Shown here in pieces: positions 13,051-19,951 of a stretch of 64,000 nucleotides of DNA. Each line of letters begins with the position of its first letter. Position 1 is the stretch's first letter. The DNA lies in assembly GCF_001458775.1 (NCBI RefSeq), contig NZ_CZPZ01000001.1:62001-126000 (forward strand), written 5' to 3'. A model generated the notes under the pieces. The model saw only the letters and a list, made by a program, of their open reading frames with translations. It had not been told where the DNA came from and searched no databases. Made by a program: the position numbers and the translations under genes. The DNA is from Candidatus Nitrospira nitrificans. GTDB taxonomy: Bacteria > Nitrospirota > Nitrospiria > Nitrospirales > Nitrospiraceae.

Positions 13051-15438
13051 TTACCCCCTTATCTGCGCGAGAACATGCTCTGCCTCTTGCCGCCCTTCGA
13101 ACGGATCGGAACTCTTGAGCGCCCTTGAGAGATAGGTACGGGCCTCGGCGCGTTGACCAGATTGAAAACAGGCGATCCCAAGGTGATAATTTAGGACGGA
13201 CATGTCCGGAGATTTGCTGACGGCTTGCTTCATCAAACGAATCGCCTCTTCCTGTTGCCCCATTTTGAATCGCACCCAGCCGAGCGTATCGATAAAGAAC
13301 GGATGCGGCGCATCCCGTTCGAAATCTCGACTGAGCGCGAAGGCCCTTTGTAAACTCGCTGGATCACGCTTGTGGTCCACGAGGAGAACCGCCAGGTTAT
13401 TCGACGCCAGCAGGTTTCGAGGATTCAAACGTAACGTCGTCTCATAGGCGGCCATCGCGAGATCGATCTGCCCTTGTTCGAACCGAGCGGAGGCCAACAA
13501 CATGTGCAACTCCTCGCTCTCCGGGTTGGCCTTGAGTCCTTCGTTGAGAACCTCTACGGCGACGTCCGGTTTCTTCTGGGACAACGACAACATGGCCCAG
13601 TTGAGCCAAGGCGTCATCCATTTTGGATTCAGTCGCACAGCCTCACGATAGTGCAGTGCAGCCTCTTCGTGCTTCCGACTGAGAGACAACACCTCTCCCA
13701 GTAATCCATGCGCAAACGGATGGTCCTTGTGGGAAACCAGAAGGGCTTCCAGGCGAATTCTGGACTGCTGGGCTTGCCCCAACGCCGCCTCCACCTTCAC
13801 GAGCGATAACAGCGGCTCTGGTTCGTTCGGAACCAGCGCTGTGGCACGCTCGTAGGCTCGACTCGCCTCGCTCAGACGGCGCTGGGCTTCATAAAACCGT
13901 CCTTCGGCTAACAGAGCCACAGACCTATTGCCGGAAGAGACCTGACGAAGGCGCGTCAACGTCCGCTCAGCCCCCGGCCAGTTCTTCGTCACCAGATCCA
14001 ACGTCATCAACATGTCGAGAGCGATGACATCATCGGGACGCTGTTTCAGCAAGTCCTCGATCCGAGCACGGGCCTGTTCGTAACGACCGCTTTTGCTCTC
14101 AAGAACGGCGAGAGACCGTTTCGCATCCACCTGGTCCGGATACAGAACGACCGCTCGCTCGAAACTTTCTTTTGCGAGATTAGTGTCTCCCGTCAGCTGA
14201 TACGCTTGACCGAGAAGATAGTGGATGGTGGCCAACTCCGGTTGATCGTGCAGAACAGTGCGCAACGCCTGCACCGCTTCTTTTCCGTTTCGTCTGGCCA
14301 ACGCCATACGCCCTGTAAGAATCAGTCCATCCGATGAGCGGGGATTGGCCTGCAATACCTCCTGCACGCGATGCTCCGCGTCCGCTTGCTTGCCCTCCGC
14401 AAAATCCATCTCGGCCAGTTTAACCTTGGCTTCCAGACCGACGGGTTTGTCTTTGTATTCCTCGATCAACAGAGCATAGAGCCGGCGAGCCTGGAGGTCC
14501 TGTCCGCTCTTTCTGTAGAGCGCACTGAGTCCGAACTGAATGTGGGTTGCGTGCGGGATTTGGGCCGCCGCATCAAGAAGCGCCTGTTCGGCAGCCGCCA
14601 CATCTTGCGCGTTCACAAACAACTCCGCAAGCATGAGACGACGCTGTTCGTTGGTTGGATCCAATGCGATCGCCTCTCGTAACACAGCTTCCGCTTTATT
14701 CCGTGCTCCCTGTCCAACATAGAAACGGGCAAGCCTCATCCGATGATCAAAGGATGTCGGTTCAGCCGCGACCATCCGGCGCATCACAGTCTCGGCACCG
14801 GCCATATTGTCGGCCTGCGTCAAGATCCTATTCAAATTATTCAACAGATCGAGATCCGTCGGATGGGATTCAAGAGCGCGCCTCAATGTCGTCTCCGCTT
14901 CCCGATAACGCCGTTGTTGGCCGTACAGTGTCGCGAGGAGGATGGCAACATCCGGCTCTGCGGGAAATTCATTCGCCAGCGCCTCCGCGTCGGGAATGAG
15001 CGAAGGAATCGCTGCTTCCGTCACCGCCTGTGCCGCAATCTTCAGCGCACTGGCCTGCGGGTGGCGAGAATGGCTTTTGAGCACCGTGTCCGCGGCTTCG
15101 GCCACACGATCCGTCAGCCTCGCTTCAAGATAGTACTTACCCAGAGTGATGAGGGCGGCCGCGTGATCGGGAACCAGACGCACCGCCTCCTGATACAGCT
15201 GAACGGCATTGCGCCAGTTTTTCTCTTTCTCCTCGACTTGAGCGAAGAGATAGTAGGCCTCCGCATCTTTAGGGTCGATCTTCAACACGTTTCTCAAAGC
15301 GACCCGCGCCTTGGGATAATTGGCCGCGTCGATGTACTCATTCGCCTTGGCAAAATACTTTGCTTTTCGTTCCTCGGGACCACCGCACGCCGTCAGCGTG
15401 ACGGCGGCCAAAAGCACGATGCCGCTTATCACACGCAT
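13051..15438 (-). CDS. prsT: PEP-CTERM system TPR-repeat lipoprotein (PrsT-like)
   Basis: A lipoprotein of about 795 residues built almost entirely from TPR units. The signal sequence MRVISGIVLLAAVTLTAC ends in a lipobox, so the mature protein should be anchored by its Cys. More than fifteen TPR helical hairpins follow, many with the A-x-x-x-Y/L pattern. Size and repeat organisation match the giant TPR protein found in nearly all PEP-CTERM/EPS loci, thought to act as an envelope scaffold for export. Upstream in-frame ATGs exist at 15447 and 15483; ATG 15438 was chosen because GAGAG lies nine bases upstream and the signal peptide begins there. Confidence 0.88.
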   Translation of the reverse strand: MRVISGIVLLAAVTLTACGGPEERKAKYFAKANEYIDAANYPKARVALRNVLKIDPKDAEAYYLFAQVEEKEKNWRNAVQLYQEAVRLVPDHAAALITLGKYYLEARLTDRVAEAADTVLKSHSRHPQASALKIAAQAVTEAAIPSLIPDAEALANEFPAEPDVAILLATLYGQQRRYREAETTLRRALESHPTDLDLLNNLNRILTQADNMAGAETVMRRMVAAEPTSFDHRMRLARFYVGQGARNKAEAVLREAIALDPTNEQRRLMLAELFVNAQDVAAAEQALLDAAAQIPHATHIQFGLSALYRKSGQDLQARRLYALLIEEYKDKPVGLEAKVKLAEMDFAEGKQADAEHRVQEVLQANPRSSDGLILTGRMALARRNGKEAVQALRTVLHDQPELATIHYLLGQAYQLTGDTNLAKESFERAVVLYPDQVDAKRSLAVLESKSGRYEQARARIEDLLKQRPDDVIALDMLMTLDLVTKNWPGAERTLTRLRQVSSGNRSVALLAEGRFYEAQRRLSEASRAYERATALVPNEPEPLLSLVKVEAALGQAQQSRIRLEALLVSHKDHPFAHGLLGEVLSLSRKHEEAALHYREAVRLNPKWMTPWLNWAMLSLSQKKPDVAVEVLNEGLKANPESEELHMLLASARFEQGQIDLAMAAYETTLRLNPRNLLASNNLAVLLVDHKRDPASLQRAFALSRDFERDAPHPFFIDTLGWVRFKMGQQEEAIRLMKQAVSKSPDMSVLNYHLGIACFQSGQRAEARTYLSRALKSSDPFEGRQEAEHVLAQIRG

Positions 15439-15512
15439 GCACGACATCTCTCGACCGCGGTCGTATAAACGTAGTGCGCTCATAAGGTTAGGTTATTACG
15501 TAACCCCATTCG

Positions 15513-17179: not shown

Positions 17180-18772
17180 TCAGTCCGGCACGTACGTCGT
17201 CAGGGCTTGCCCGGCTGCAACCGCGAACTCCTGAAGACGTTGATCAACTATGGACTCGGATTCGCCTGGACCAACCAGCGATGCCAGTCTCACGAGGGCT
17301 CCATCAGTCCGTTGTCGGAAAAAGGCATCCCACACCAGATAGATTTTGACCAGATATTCACTGGTGAGATGTCGCTCGCGTTGCTTGAACCAGTACCAAA
17401 CGATTTGCTTCTGGTCCCCCTTCTGAATGACCGCCCGATTGACTGTGAGCGGCTGCATCACCCCCTGGGACATCAGTAGTTCTCGTTGCGTCAGGGACGT
17501 GATTTCCCATCCGCCTCCCGGCAGACAACTTTGAGGCGAATGAGCTGATTGCCCCTTCCGTTGTGATCGGTAGTAGGCCGCATAGAAATTCACCGGCTGC
17601 TGATCATTCAATCGGTAGTCCGCCAGGACATAATCGTCGAACCGAAGCGTATCGATGTATTGTTGCTCGAGAGGAAACGACGATCCTTGCCAGCTGTCGA
17701 TCTGCATCGGAAAATTGACGAACGCCGCTCGCGGAGGAGGACTTTCTTCACGATCCACAACCACCGTCGAGAACACAGTAAATGGTGCGAGCAGGGCTAC
17801 GCTGCACAAATAGGCGGGGTGTGGAGACGATTGGATAAGGCCTGGTCCCATGCAGACGGATTGATGGGCGCAATCTTCTGATTGCTCTCTCCAGGTGAAC
17901 CGGTCAAACAACGACCTGTGCGACTTCACCTTTCCTATTCTGGCTAAGAGCGCCATTTCTGCGATCAGCAACCCAAAACTCACCATGAAAATGACCCACC
18001 CTTCGAAGAGATGATAAAAGCCTTCCGCGGCGCCTCTCCCATAGAGTTCCACCAACACTCCGATCACGCCGATACGAAAACCGTTCAGCATGATCGAGAT
18101 CGGAACTGACGAGAGCACGAGCACCACCCGTTTCCACATCTTGTCTTTGAACAGATACGAACAGAGCAGTGCCAGGGCAGTCAGCGGAAGCAGATATCGA
18201 ACCCCGCTGCATGCCTCGACAACTTGGAGTTGCACCGGCCCCAGATCAATGACATTGCCTTCCCGATACGCCATCACACCAACAAGCTGTAAACATCCGA
18301 CACCGAGGGATGAGGACCATAATTGGAGCTGGCTCGACAGATTCGCGTAAAAGAACATCGGTAGAGGGATCGCGCTCAGGAGATACCCGAGAGGAAACGC
18401 AATGATCTTGGCCCCATGAAGCCCGAGCAGCGTGACGGTCAACCCGACGAGTACGACCCACAAGGAGACGTGAAGGATGACAAACAGTGTGGACAATTCC
18501 CCCACCACATAGAGGATGAGCCCCAGCGCCATGACAGCAATACCCCACCACGAGTTCTCCCTCGCCACTTGACTGAGACGATGCCGAGATTGCCAAACCA
18601 AATACCCGCTAATGAAAGGCACGAAAACTCCGTGACTATAATCCTCAGTGCCCAACCACTGACTGAACAGGTAGGCCAGGCTCTCCGCGTACATGTAGCC
18701 CAACAGCGCCACGACCAGGGTTGAGGTGAAGATCAGATAGCGATTGCTAGTCATGCGACAGAAGTCACTCAT
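17180..18772 (-). CDS. xrtD: Exosortase fused to EpsI domain (VPLPA-CTERM-specific, XrtD type)
   Basis: A membrane cysteine transpeptidase-like sorting enzyme. Residues 1-275 are the exosortase core with about eight hydrophobic helices and the expected catalytic set: Cys188 in VVEACSGVRYLLPL, Arg233 in LNGFRIG and His254 in FYHLFEGW. Residues about 310-530 are a periplasmic EpsI-type domain (PLEQQYIDTL, VNFYAAYYRSQRKGQSAHSPQ, VWYWFKQRERH). Fusion of both domains is the layout of XrtD, which recognises VPLPA-CTERM tails. The next gene upstream encodes exactly such a tail, supporting an enzyme-substrate pair. ATG 18754 is an alternative start. Confidence 0.88.
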   Translation of the reverse strand: MSDFCRMTSNRYLIFTSTLVVALLGYMYAESLAYLFSQWLGTEDYSHGVFVPFISGYLVWQSRHRLSQVARENSWWGIAVMALGLILYVVGELSTLFVILHVSLWVVLVGLTVTLLGLHGAKIIAFPLGYLLSAIPLPMFFYANLSSQLQLWSSSLGVGCLQLVGVMAYREGNVIDLGPVQLQVVEACSGVRYLLPLTALALLCSYLFKDKMWKRVVLVLSSVPISIMLNGFRIGVIGVLVELYGRGAAEGFYHLFEGWVIFMVSFGLLIAEMALLARIGKVKSHRSLFDRFTWREQSEDCAHQSVCMGPGLIQSSPHPAYLCSVALLAPFTVFSTVVVDREESPPPRAAFVNFPMQIDSWQGSSFPLEQQYIDTLRFDDYVLADYRLNDQQPVNFYAAYYRSQRKGQSAHSPQSCLPGGGWEITSLTQRELLMSQGVMQPLTVNRAVIQKGDQKQIVWYWFKQRERHLTSEYLVKIYLVWDAFFRQRTDGALVRLASLVGPGESESIVDQRLQEFAVAAGQALTTYVPD

Positions 18773-18880
18773 ATGATGATGAGGAATGAGTCACACGCGC
18801 TACGACGATCCGAAAGAGCGGGGCGAAAGCTGATTATCTATGGCAACCAGTGATCTGTCGATTGATTTTGAAGAAAGAAC

Positions 18881-18911
18881 GGGCTTGATACCCACGGTGG
18901 GTATCAAGCCC
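18881..18911 (-). terminator. Strong hairpin, probable terminator of the VPLPA-CTERM gene
   Basis: A perfect inverted repeat with arms of 14-15 bases (GGGCTTGATACCCA and its complement) around a three-base loop. On the minus strand it lies 25 bases after the VPLPA-CTERM stop and is followed by the pyrimidine-rich GTTCTTTCTT. It fits a Rho-independent terminator that separates this gene from xrtD. Confidence 0.75.
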
Positions 18912-18935
18912 CGGTCGTCAAAACGAGGTTTGCGA

Positions 18936-19601
18936 TTAAGCCTTGGCTCCGCGGAGATTTCTTAACCCTCCCGCACCCAAACCGACCAACGAAATAAGAC
19001 CTGCGCCGAACAGAAGAACTGCAGCCGGCAACGGGACTGCCGTCAGGTGAGCAAGCGAACCAACGATATAGTTTCCCGTCCCACCGAAGTCCAGCCGCCA
19101 CTGATTTCTGGCAAACGAACTTAAGCTTGGCGGGGCGGTGGGAACATTCACGTCCCCGAACGCGTTCCCGCTTGGATCGCTGAGCGACAACTGAAAGCTA
19201 GACGGCAATACTCCATTGATTGCCCCACCCGTCACGGTGGAGAAGGCGGTGAGACTGTCGACCCCTGCCAGTGGAGGGCTGTTCAGCACCAACAGGCCAT
19301 TGGCGCCGGAAGCATACGAGAATATATGGCCGTTAATGTTGAGGTTGAGTCCTGTGATCGAGTTGAGATACAGTCCCGTTCCAGGAATAATCGGAGCAGT
19401 ACTGGTATCGAATGTGATATTGCCCGACATGACTCCAGTCCCCACGGTTGGGAACAGCACACCTCCAACCTCACCGATTGACCCGCTAAACGAAAAGCTG
19501 ACAAGGCTGGCCTCCGATGGTCCGGCAACCAAGAGAACCGAACTCAATGCGATCGCCGGCAAGGCGAGTCGTCTACCAAATAGGCGCTTCATCATCCGCA
19601 T
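18936..19601 (-). CDS. VPLPA-CTERM sorting-domain surface protein
   Basis: A 221-residue secreted protein. The signal peptide (about residues 1-30) ends near GPSEASLVSF. The mature part is Gly/Ser/Thr-rich beta-type sequence with no recognised enzyme domain. The last 33 residues form the sorting signal: VPLPA at about 189-193, a hydrophobic helix (AVLLFGAGLISLVGLG) and a basic tail (RNLRG). An exosortase should process it at the membrane and release it to the surface or EPS matrix. Start ATG 19601 has AGGAG seven bases upstream. A sigma-54-type promoter lies 60 bases upstream and a strong terminator follows, so it is a single-gene unit. Confidence 0.88.
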   Translation of the reverse strand: MRMMKRLFGRRLALPAIALSSVLLVAGPSEASLVSFSFSGSIGEVGGVLFPTVGTGVMSGNITFDTSTAPIIPGTGLYLNSITGLNLNINGHIFSYASGANGLLVLNSPPLAGVDSLTAFSTVTGGAINGVLPSSFQLSLSDPSGNAFGDVNVPTAPPSLSSFARNQWRLDFGGTGNYIVGSLAHLTAVPLPAAVLLFGAGLISLVGLGAGGLRNLRGAKA

Positions 19602-19951
19602 AACACCACTCCTGCTAGAGGTTGACACATAAGGAACACGTGTGAACAGGGAAGCGTTCAGCAAATCCCAGGCCATCCAGGACCAGATGCATGTCACTGA
19701 AAACTAAGGAACACGATTGAGACTTTCGTCGGCAACTGTGTGCATGACACCACAACGATGTTCAATTATGTATGGGCCCTGTGCAGGGGGAAGCTACCTA
19801 CCGCGTTTCCTCCTACCTGGCAAAACCCATTCATATCGTTGCAATGTCCCTGATGGATACCTCTCCAGTGCCCCTACCTTTTATTGGCCGTTCGGCATGC
19901 CCGGATCGAAGCGTGACCGGATGTTGTGGAGATCAGAGTTCTTCGGCAAGG
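19602..19951. other. 350-base intergenic region upstream of the VPLPA-CTERM gene
   Basis: No convincing gene. It contains the sigma-54-type promoter at 19660-19675 and two direct copies of TAAGGAACACG (19630-19640 and 19705-19715) 75 bases apart, possible activator sites. Short frames on the plus strand here have no ribosome-binding site or family features. Nothing clear was seen in 19720-19951. Confidence 0.5.
19660..19675 (-). promoter_or_regulatory. Sigma-54 (-24/-12) promoter for the VPLPA-CTERM gene
   Basis: On the minus strand the sequence is TGGCCTGGGATTTGCT. It has the invariant GG and GC at the required ten-base spacing and a perfect TTGCT -12 element; only the CAC after TGG deviates. 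The GC lies about 60 bases before the ATG at 19601. Sigma-54 control of PEP-CTERM proteins through the PrsK/PrsR two-component pair is established in other exosortase bacteria. Confidence 0.65.

Follow-up and report, generated by a model that had tools for sequence, protein, structure and literature searches.

A predicted exosortase display locus for one variable surface protein with an exchanged body in Candidatus Nitrospira nitrificans

In the general exosortase model, the enzyme recognises its substrate, cuts at a C-terminal signal and hands the protein over to an anchor. Two kinds of such system are already known: pairs of the exosortase XrtD with VPLPA-tailed proteins, and PEP-CTERM genes linked to sigma-54 (PMC1569441). 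In the available text of that study (Haft 2006), a -24/-12 pattern lies upstream of proteobacterial PEP-CTERM genes, a motif 1 ending in TTTACA precedes the promoter by about 63 bases, and the motifs are common to Proteobacteria only. The available account of pepA in Aquincola describes an RpoN-dependent gene, mapped by primer extension and followed by a stem-loop terminator and then prsT (PMC9850573). From a different direction, the accessible sections on the VARTIG modules of Thermococcales describe secreted proteins of which one part is made hypervariable by recombination between strains, with a role in self/nonself recognition or conflict proposed (PMC8416519). Here we compare with these systems a locus of Candidatus Nitrospira nitrificans, lying in a 64,000-nucleotide stretch (the window; assembly GCF_001458775.1, contig NZ_CZPZ01000001.1, positions 62,001 to 126,000), in which a gene for a VPLPA-tailed protein, termed the substrate gene, is adjacent to an exosortase gene, xrtD.

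We estimate a probability of about 70% that this locus is devoted to the display of a single variable surface protein, whose body is exchanged between strains, whose gene would be controlled by sigma-54 and which the exosortase would display. The enzyme, its pairing, the conservation of the promoter, the terminator and the cassette replacement of the body were computed from the genome containing the window (4.117 Mb, 36 contigs, 99.77% complete) and from its relatives. The comparison covers 30 xrtD loci, of which 28 are readable (the window and 27 relatives); the other two are L053, in which the gene is damaged and a series of bases reads N, and L063, which ends at xrtD. Among the 13 exosortase relatives with a named taxon, 12 are Nitrospira sp. 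and one is Nitrospirota.

A first-pass annotation, made from the sequence of the window alone, had proposed an XrtD-type exosortase-EpsI fusion with a Cys/Arg/His set, paired with a dedicated substrate that ends in VPLPA, a hydrophobic helix and a basic tail. Each of these points is borne out. XrtD passes the TIGR04152 cut-off in a profile search (545.8 against 400 bits), carries the EpsI domain (TIGR02914, 141.2 bits) at residues 353-526, and contains the Cys188, Arg233 and His254 motifs, which loose patterns find in 30/30 XrtD loci. In the 221-residue substrate, VPLPA occupies residues 189-193 and is followed by a hydrophobic stretch and then a basic end. The annotation had placed the substrate gene after the exosortase gene, which holds in plus-strand coordinates only; in the direction of transcription, the substrate gene lies 5' of xrtD.

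Both partners are single in the genome. There is no other XrtD match at E<=1, and the full tail scores 79.5 bits against 15.9 for the next match; the PEP-CTERM model TIGR02595 gives no match at E<=10 across the same genome. Across 98 genomes (own included), XrtD and the tail occur together in 37, XrtD alone in one, the tail alone in one and neither in 59, at thresholds of >=60% identity for XrtD and >=50 bits for the tail that were both chosen after the lists were seen. The sole XrtD-only genome is G011, whose contig stops at xrtD; the sole tail-only genome is G033. XrtD and the VPLPA-tailed protein thus look like a dedicated pair, in which XrtD would cleave and transfer this substrate.

The body of the substrate, between its promoter and its tail, follows a history of its own. 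Over the 378 pairs formed by the 28 loci, median identity is 73.9% for XrtD and 88.9% for the tail, against 46.8% for the body. The change is abrupt in closely related loci: XrtD is 95.7% and the tail 97.2% identical between L055 and L056, the body is 36.1% identical, and DNA identity rises from about 60% in the body to more than 90% at the tail codons. Likewise, most 60-base steps between L051 and L052 are 93-98% identical through the end of the upstream gene and the promoter, 43-73% in the body and 85-95% from the tail onward. In the 20 kb shared by L189 and L190, 14 in-frame neighbours, counted after exclusion of antisense and out-of-frame open reading frames (49-95% identity), have 82-98% amino-acid identity, and the substrate alone drops to 44.8%. 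Body identity is below 60% in 16 of 25 close pairs, body DNA identities in these pairs being inflated by gapped alignment.

Comparison with neighbouring genes gives the same result. It used 11 loci (the window and 10 of 13 loci; L186 and L191 were omitted for short upstream flanks and L198 as distant), giving 55 pairs that are not independent. In 52 of these pairs, all compared neighbour genes are more similar than the body, whose identity is uncoupled from that of XrtD (Spearman 0.11; the tail reaches 0.60 and seven neighbours 0.64-0.86). The allele of the window recurs in L056, with 88% identity in the body and 77% in XrtD, and in L196, at 69% over the whole protein. Several relatives have tandem tail genes upstream of xrtD, and each slot varies independently.

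Synonymous (dS) and nonsynonymous (dN) divergence was compared as well. In L055/L056 and L055/L057, the body has reached saturation in dS, against values of 0.13-0.17 for the tail and 0.11-0.28 for xrtD; the body in these pairs is therefore of another origin. In six pairs that keep the same allele, body dN/dS is 0.12-0.26, and retained alleles are under purifying selection, with L052/L054 as the exception. Together, these comparisons show a body replaced as one cassette, with the promoter before it and the tail after it staying fixed, a feature that the first-pass annotation had missed. In a separate observation, L057 is 74-89% identical to L055 and L056 over the first 400 bases of xrtD and about 95% identical further on, a pattern that occasional exchange tracts reaching into xrtD would give.

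The promoter was assessed by its conservation. The pattern TGG[CT]C-N6-TTGCT precedes the substrate gene in 28/28 readable loci, with the ATG 42-69 bases downstream; the T, GG, C and TTGCT are invariant and the remaining positions vary. GG and GC lie ten bases apart, as tested for a sigma-54 promoter, and are conserved at a fixed distance from the gene. The background is one match in 184,638 bases, both strands summed, of xrtD and the DNA that follows it at the 30 loci, and TGGCCTGGGATTTGCT itself occurs once within the window. A hairpin of at least 12 pairs was not found in L060, L075, L076, L078 and L079, and in L077 the interval was mis-set. With the conserved GG/GC site and the 14-pair hairpin, the initial view that the substrate gene has its own promoter and a strong terminator, and is controlled separately from the exosortase, stands.

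Upstream of the promoter lie two further conserved blocks (Table 1), the outer of which contains TTGAAC about 90 bases from the promoter; by eye, two relatives (L162, L163) show repeats of this unit spaced by 20 bases. A scan for other VPLPA proteins with the same promoter, suggested with the first annotation, finds no second tail gene in the genome itself and succeeds in relatives, where 9 of 13 tail genes taken from other contigs share the promoter as scored with sigma-54 weights. Both blocks also precede all eight of the promoter-bearing tail genes compared from these contigs. A composite pattern (TTGAAC, 70-95 bases, TGGNC-N6-TTGC) matches twice in the genome, once before the substrate gene and once opposite a 411-residue coding frame; it occurs in at least 73 of 96 genomes, many times by chance and in some cases outside the genus Nitrospira. 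Since nine of the 13 tail genes on other contigs share the promoter, the control module is shared by a group of Nitrospira tail genes, of which this genome has a single member.

Other tail classes were also seen in relatives. Genes with the tail VALIGLGAGGLRN (L160, L162, L163, L174, L196) are without the GG/GC promoter, and one of them, in L196, is flanked by the promoter-bearing gene and xrtD. Some relatives have a second XrtD (about 53% identity), absent from the genome studied, with many shorter tails. Before its short-tail genes, of the form VP[VL]PAA...LARR, no TGGYC-N6-TTGC site was seen; in L167, L168, L172 and L179, [CT]GTCACATCTGTWGCA or near variants repeatedly precede the frame by about 100-120 bases and may be another shared control element.

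Table 1. Positions in the window of the features of the exosortase locus
Feature	Position	Strand	Evidence
PrsT-like TPR protein gene, same exopolysaccharide (EPS) cluster	13051..15483	-	TIGR02917 291 bits, cut-off 312.2
xrtD, exosortase D with fused EpsI domain	17180..18772	-	TIGR04152 545.8 bits, TIGR02914 141.2 bits
Sigma-70-like promoter of xrtD (TCGACA-17-GATAAT)	18833..18861	-	pattern recurs in 9/28 loci
Hairpin terminator of 14 pairs, separating substrate gene from xrtD	18881..18911	-	hairpin of 12 or more pairs in 22/28 loci
Fixed tail LTAVPLPAAVLLFGAGLISLVGLGAGGLRNLRGAKA and stop; VPLPA at 19023-19037	18936..19043	-	median identity 88.9% against 46.8% for the body, 378 pairs
Substrate gene, 221 residues: signal peptide, beta-strand body (model residues 33-190), VPLPA tail	18936..19601	-	sequence; model pLDDT 76.2
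-24/-12 (sigma-54-type) promoter TGGCCTGGGATTTGCT	19660..19675	-	28/28 readable loci; transcript start predicted near 19649
Conserved block CCTTAGTTTTCAGTGACAT, directly upstream of promoter	19691..19709	-	TTAGTTTTCA within 3 mismatches, 24/28 loci
Conserved block CATACATAATTGAAC...ACACAGT, candidate activator site	19735..19774	-	TTGAAC within 1 mismatch, 28/28 loci

The gene xrtD sits in an EPS cluster with glycosyltransferase, Wzz-like, export, flippase-like, polymerase-like and PrsT-like genes, the last of which narrowly misses formal PrsT membership. Its start may be at 18754, because the alignment of relatives begins at a later MTSN/MASN methionine. In an AlphaFold model of the substrate (mean pLDDT 76.2, pTM 0.67), the body forms ten beta strands in a run with a confident core, and the signal peptide and tail helix are of low confidence (blocks 45-58). 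A Foldseek search with this model returned nothing at E<=0.001. Fold names suggested by VIA-align (best Z: Cap15 9.3, NspA 9.1, OmpA 8.8) were dropped as close to the stated background of 7-8. The window substrate is unmatched by NF033554, the model of the flocculation protein PepA. Among 14 aligned substrates of relatives, four match it weakly (E<=0.1; best E 0.00028) and eight weakly match the PEP-CTERM THxN model.

Several results weigh against the proposed reading, and they are best considered with the alternatives. In 9 of the 25 close pairs body identity is at least 60%, so many lineages retain their allele; the split of 16 to 9 is as expected of occasional swaps. The locus might instead encode an ordinary dedicated XrtD/VPLPA matrix protein, with birth and loss of tandem copies leaving different paralogues in each strain and no functional meaning. 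The tandem tail genes of several relatives would suit this, and the tails are alike enough for deletions to join one body to another tail. However, the single copy in L189 is at most 66.8% identical to either of the two copies in L188, although the flanks are 94-98% identical; between G039 and G007 the upstream copy is kept (84.6%) and the copy on the xrtD side is different (25.4%), whereas between G055 and G007 it is the upstream copy that differs (45.8%). All three results are compatible with older pools of paralogues as the source of alleles, and we regard this explanation as a serious one, if clearly short of even odds. It is improbable, by comparison, that exchange played no part and that fast point change, driven by positive or relaxed selection, made the body diverge. 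L052/L054 would fit, as the body diverged there without saturated dS (dN 0.224, dS 0.28; dN/dS 0.8), a pattern better explained by fast amino-acid change or partial exchange than by a whole swap. The low dN/dS of the six other allele-keeping pairs and the lack of correlation between body and XrtD identity speak against it, and the saturated body dS beside low values in the tail and xrtD largely refutes it, with some error added by alignments at about 36% identity.

The control of the gene raises a further question, since the conserved 16 bases may bind another regulator and a different promoter may drive the gene. Genome-wide, TGGCNNGNNNNTTGCW is not enriched (22 matches against 22 for the reversed control); therefore, the consensus alone proves nothing, and it is by conservation, not by genome count, that the promoter is beyond chance. 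The sigma-54 consensus reads TGGCACG, from which the site differs at two positions. Against this, TGG.C and TTGCT are invariant at every readable locus with variable bases between them, the same -24/-12 pattern is described upstream of proteobacterial PEP-CTERM genes in the available text of PMC1569441, and RpoN dependence was mapped by primer extension in the Aquincola case, as far as the accessible account goes (PMC9850573). We therefore think a different regulator at this site quite unlikely. Adverse points also come from relatives, where the promoter is absent before 4 of the 13 tail genes on other contigs, all four with another tail end, and from the tail of the window itself, which lies below the VPLPA-CTERM cut-off (TIGR03370, 10.6 against 25.35 bits, E 4.39 in its own genome). 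For the latter reason we regard it, from its sequence, as a Nitrospira form of the VPLPA tail, with the VPLPA letters and outside formal TIGR03370 membership.

The genome encodes 23 sigma-54 activator-like proteins and a single rpoN (435.5 bits), the gene that the first-pass annotation had recommended locating. Its remark that no prsK or prsR lies in the window extends to the whole genome at curated cut-offs, with the PrsT-like gene of the window just under its own; this too counts against the proposed control, as neither PrsR (TIGR02915, best 433.7 against 502.6 bits) nor PrsK (TIGR02916, best 111.2 against 300 bits) is found over cut-off genome-wide. The PrsR homologue it had also sought is accordingly represented by nothing better than that 433.7-bit protein. 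This protein, C31, the only one of the 23 profiled across genomes, was rejected as the specific activator: it also occurs, at 83-90% identity, in Nitrospira poor in or without this XrtD, and its distribution does not point to it. TTTACA, the only part of motif 1 compared, occurs about 92 bases upstream of the promoter in some loci and not in that of the window.

In the dedicated display system that we favour, sigma-54 RNA polymerase and an NtrC-type activator at the conserved upstream block would transcribe the substrate gene as a one-gene transcript ending at the hairpin. The protein would be exported by its signal peptide and retained by its C-terminal helix, and XrtD-EpsI would recognise VPLPA, cut there and transfer the body to an anchor on the outer surface or in the exopolysaccharide. 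Homologous recombination, with matching ends on the promoter-leader side and the tail-terminator-xrtD side, would swap the body, using tandem copies or other strains as donors. Because the body is swapped between strains and the promoter and tail stay fixed, a variable surface label or matrix protein is suggested; candidate purposes are a variable label, avoidance of phages or predators, and a strain-specific matrix protein. A floc or biofilm role is plausible by analogy, given the weak PepA and THxN matches of relatives and the Aquincola precedent. More tentatively, and with the odds against it, the exosortase may serve solely to display one variable small beta-strand protein as a polymorphic recognition or escape tag, a strain label or phage or predator target under diversifying pressure, with recombination keeping ancient body alleles in circulation.

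Nitrospira are key nitrifiers of water treatment and soils, living in flocs and biofilms, and an exosortase with one substrate makes the function of such a substrate directly testable. The swapping of the body among nearly identical strains points to an external reader of the protein, such as other cells, phages, grazers or the matrix. In addition, the sigma-54-type control that the available text of the 2006 study (PMC1569441) describes for exosortase substrates of Proteobacteria would also hold in Nitrospirota, there with other regulators. As far as the literature was searched, this sigma-54-type module in Nitrospirota and the body swap between fixed promoter and fixed tail are new. No report of exchanged exosortase-substrate bodies was found in the open-licence literature, which is no proof of absence in print.

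The locus resembles known XrtD/VPLPA-CTERM pairs (TIGR04152/TIGR03370) in its above-cut-off enzyme with fused EpsI and Cys/Arg/His set, and in a tail of VPLPA, hydrophobic helix and basic end. It differs in that its longer tail falls short of the TIGR03370 cut-off, the substrate is single in the genome and the body is exchanged between strains. With the PrsK/PrsR/sigma-54 PEP-CTERM genes, as far as the available text describes them (PMC1569441), it shares one-gene units, long upstream regions, a -24/-12 site and an upstream conserved block in the place of motif 1; unlike them, it belongs to Nitrospirota, has no PrsR or PrsK over cut-off, and its block may be something other than motif 1. The accessible account of Aquincola pepA-prsT (PMC9850573) offers an RpoN-dependent PEP-CTERM gene with a stem-loop terminator, where a sigma-54-type site is predicted here, but the next gene is prsT there and xrtD here, and the window protein is without a PepA match; the family link is weak, resting on 4/14 aligned substrates that match NF033554 and exclude the window's own. 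The nearest published idea found comes from Thermococcales, whose hypervariable VARTIG protein (PMC8416519) is likewise secreted and varied in one part by recombination between strains. By the accessible sections of that report, VARTIG proteins are large, contain Ig domains and vary at the C-terminal end, and the genes downstream of them vary too (PMC8416519), whereas the window protein belongs to a different family and is small, with a fixed C-terminal tail and a dedicated exosortase.

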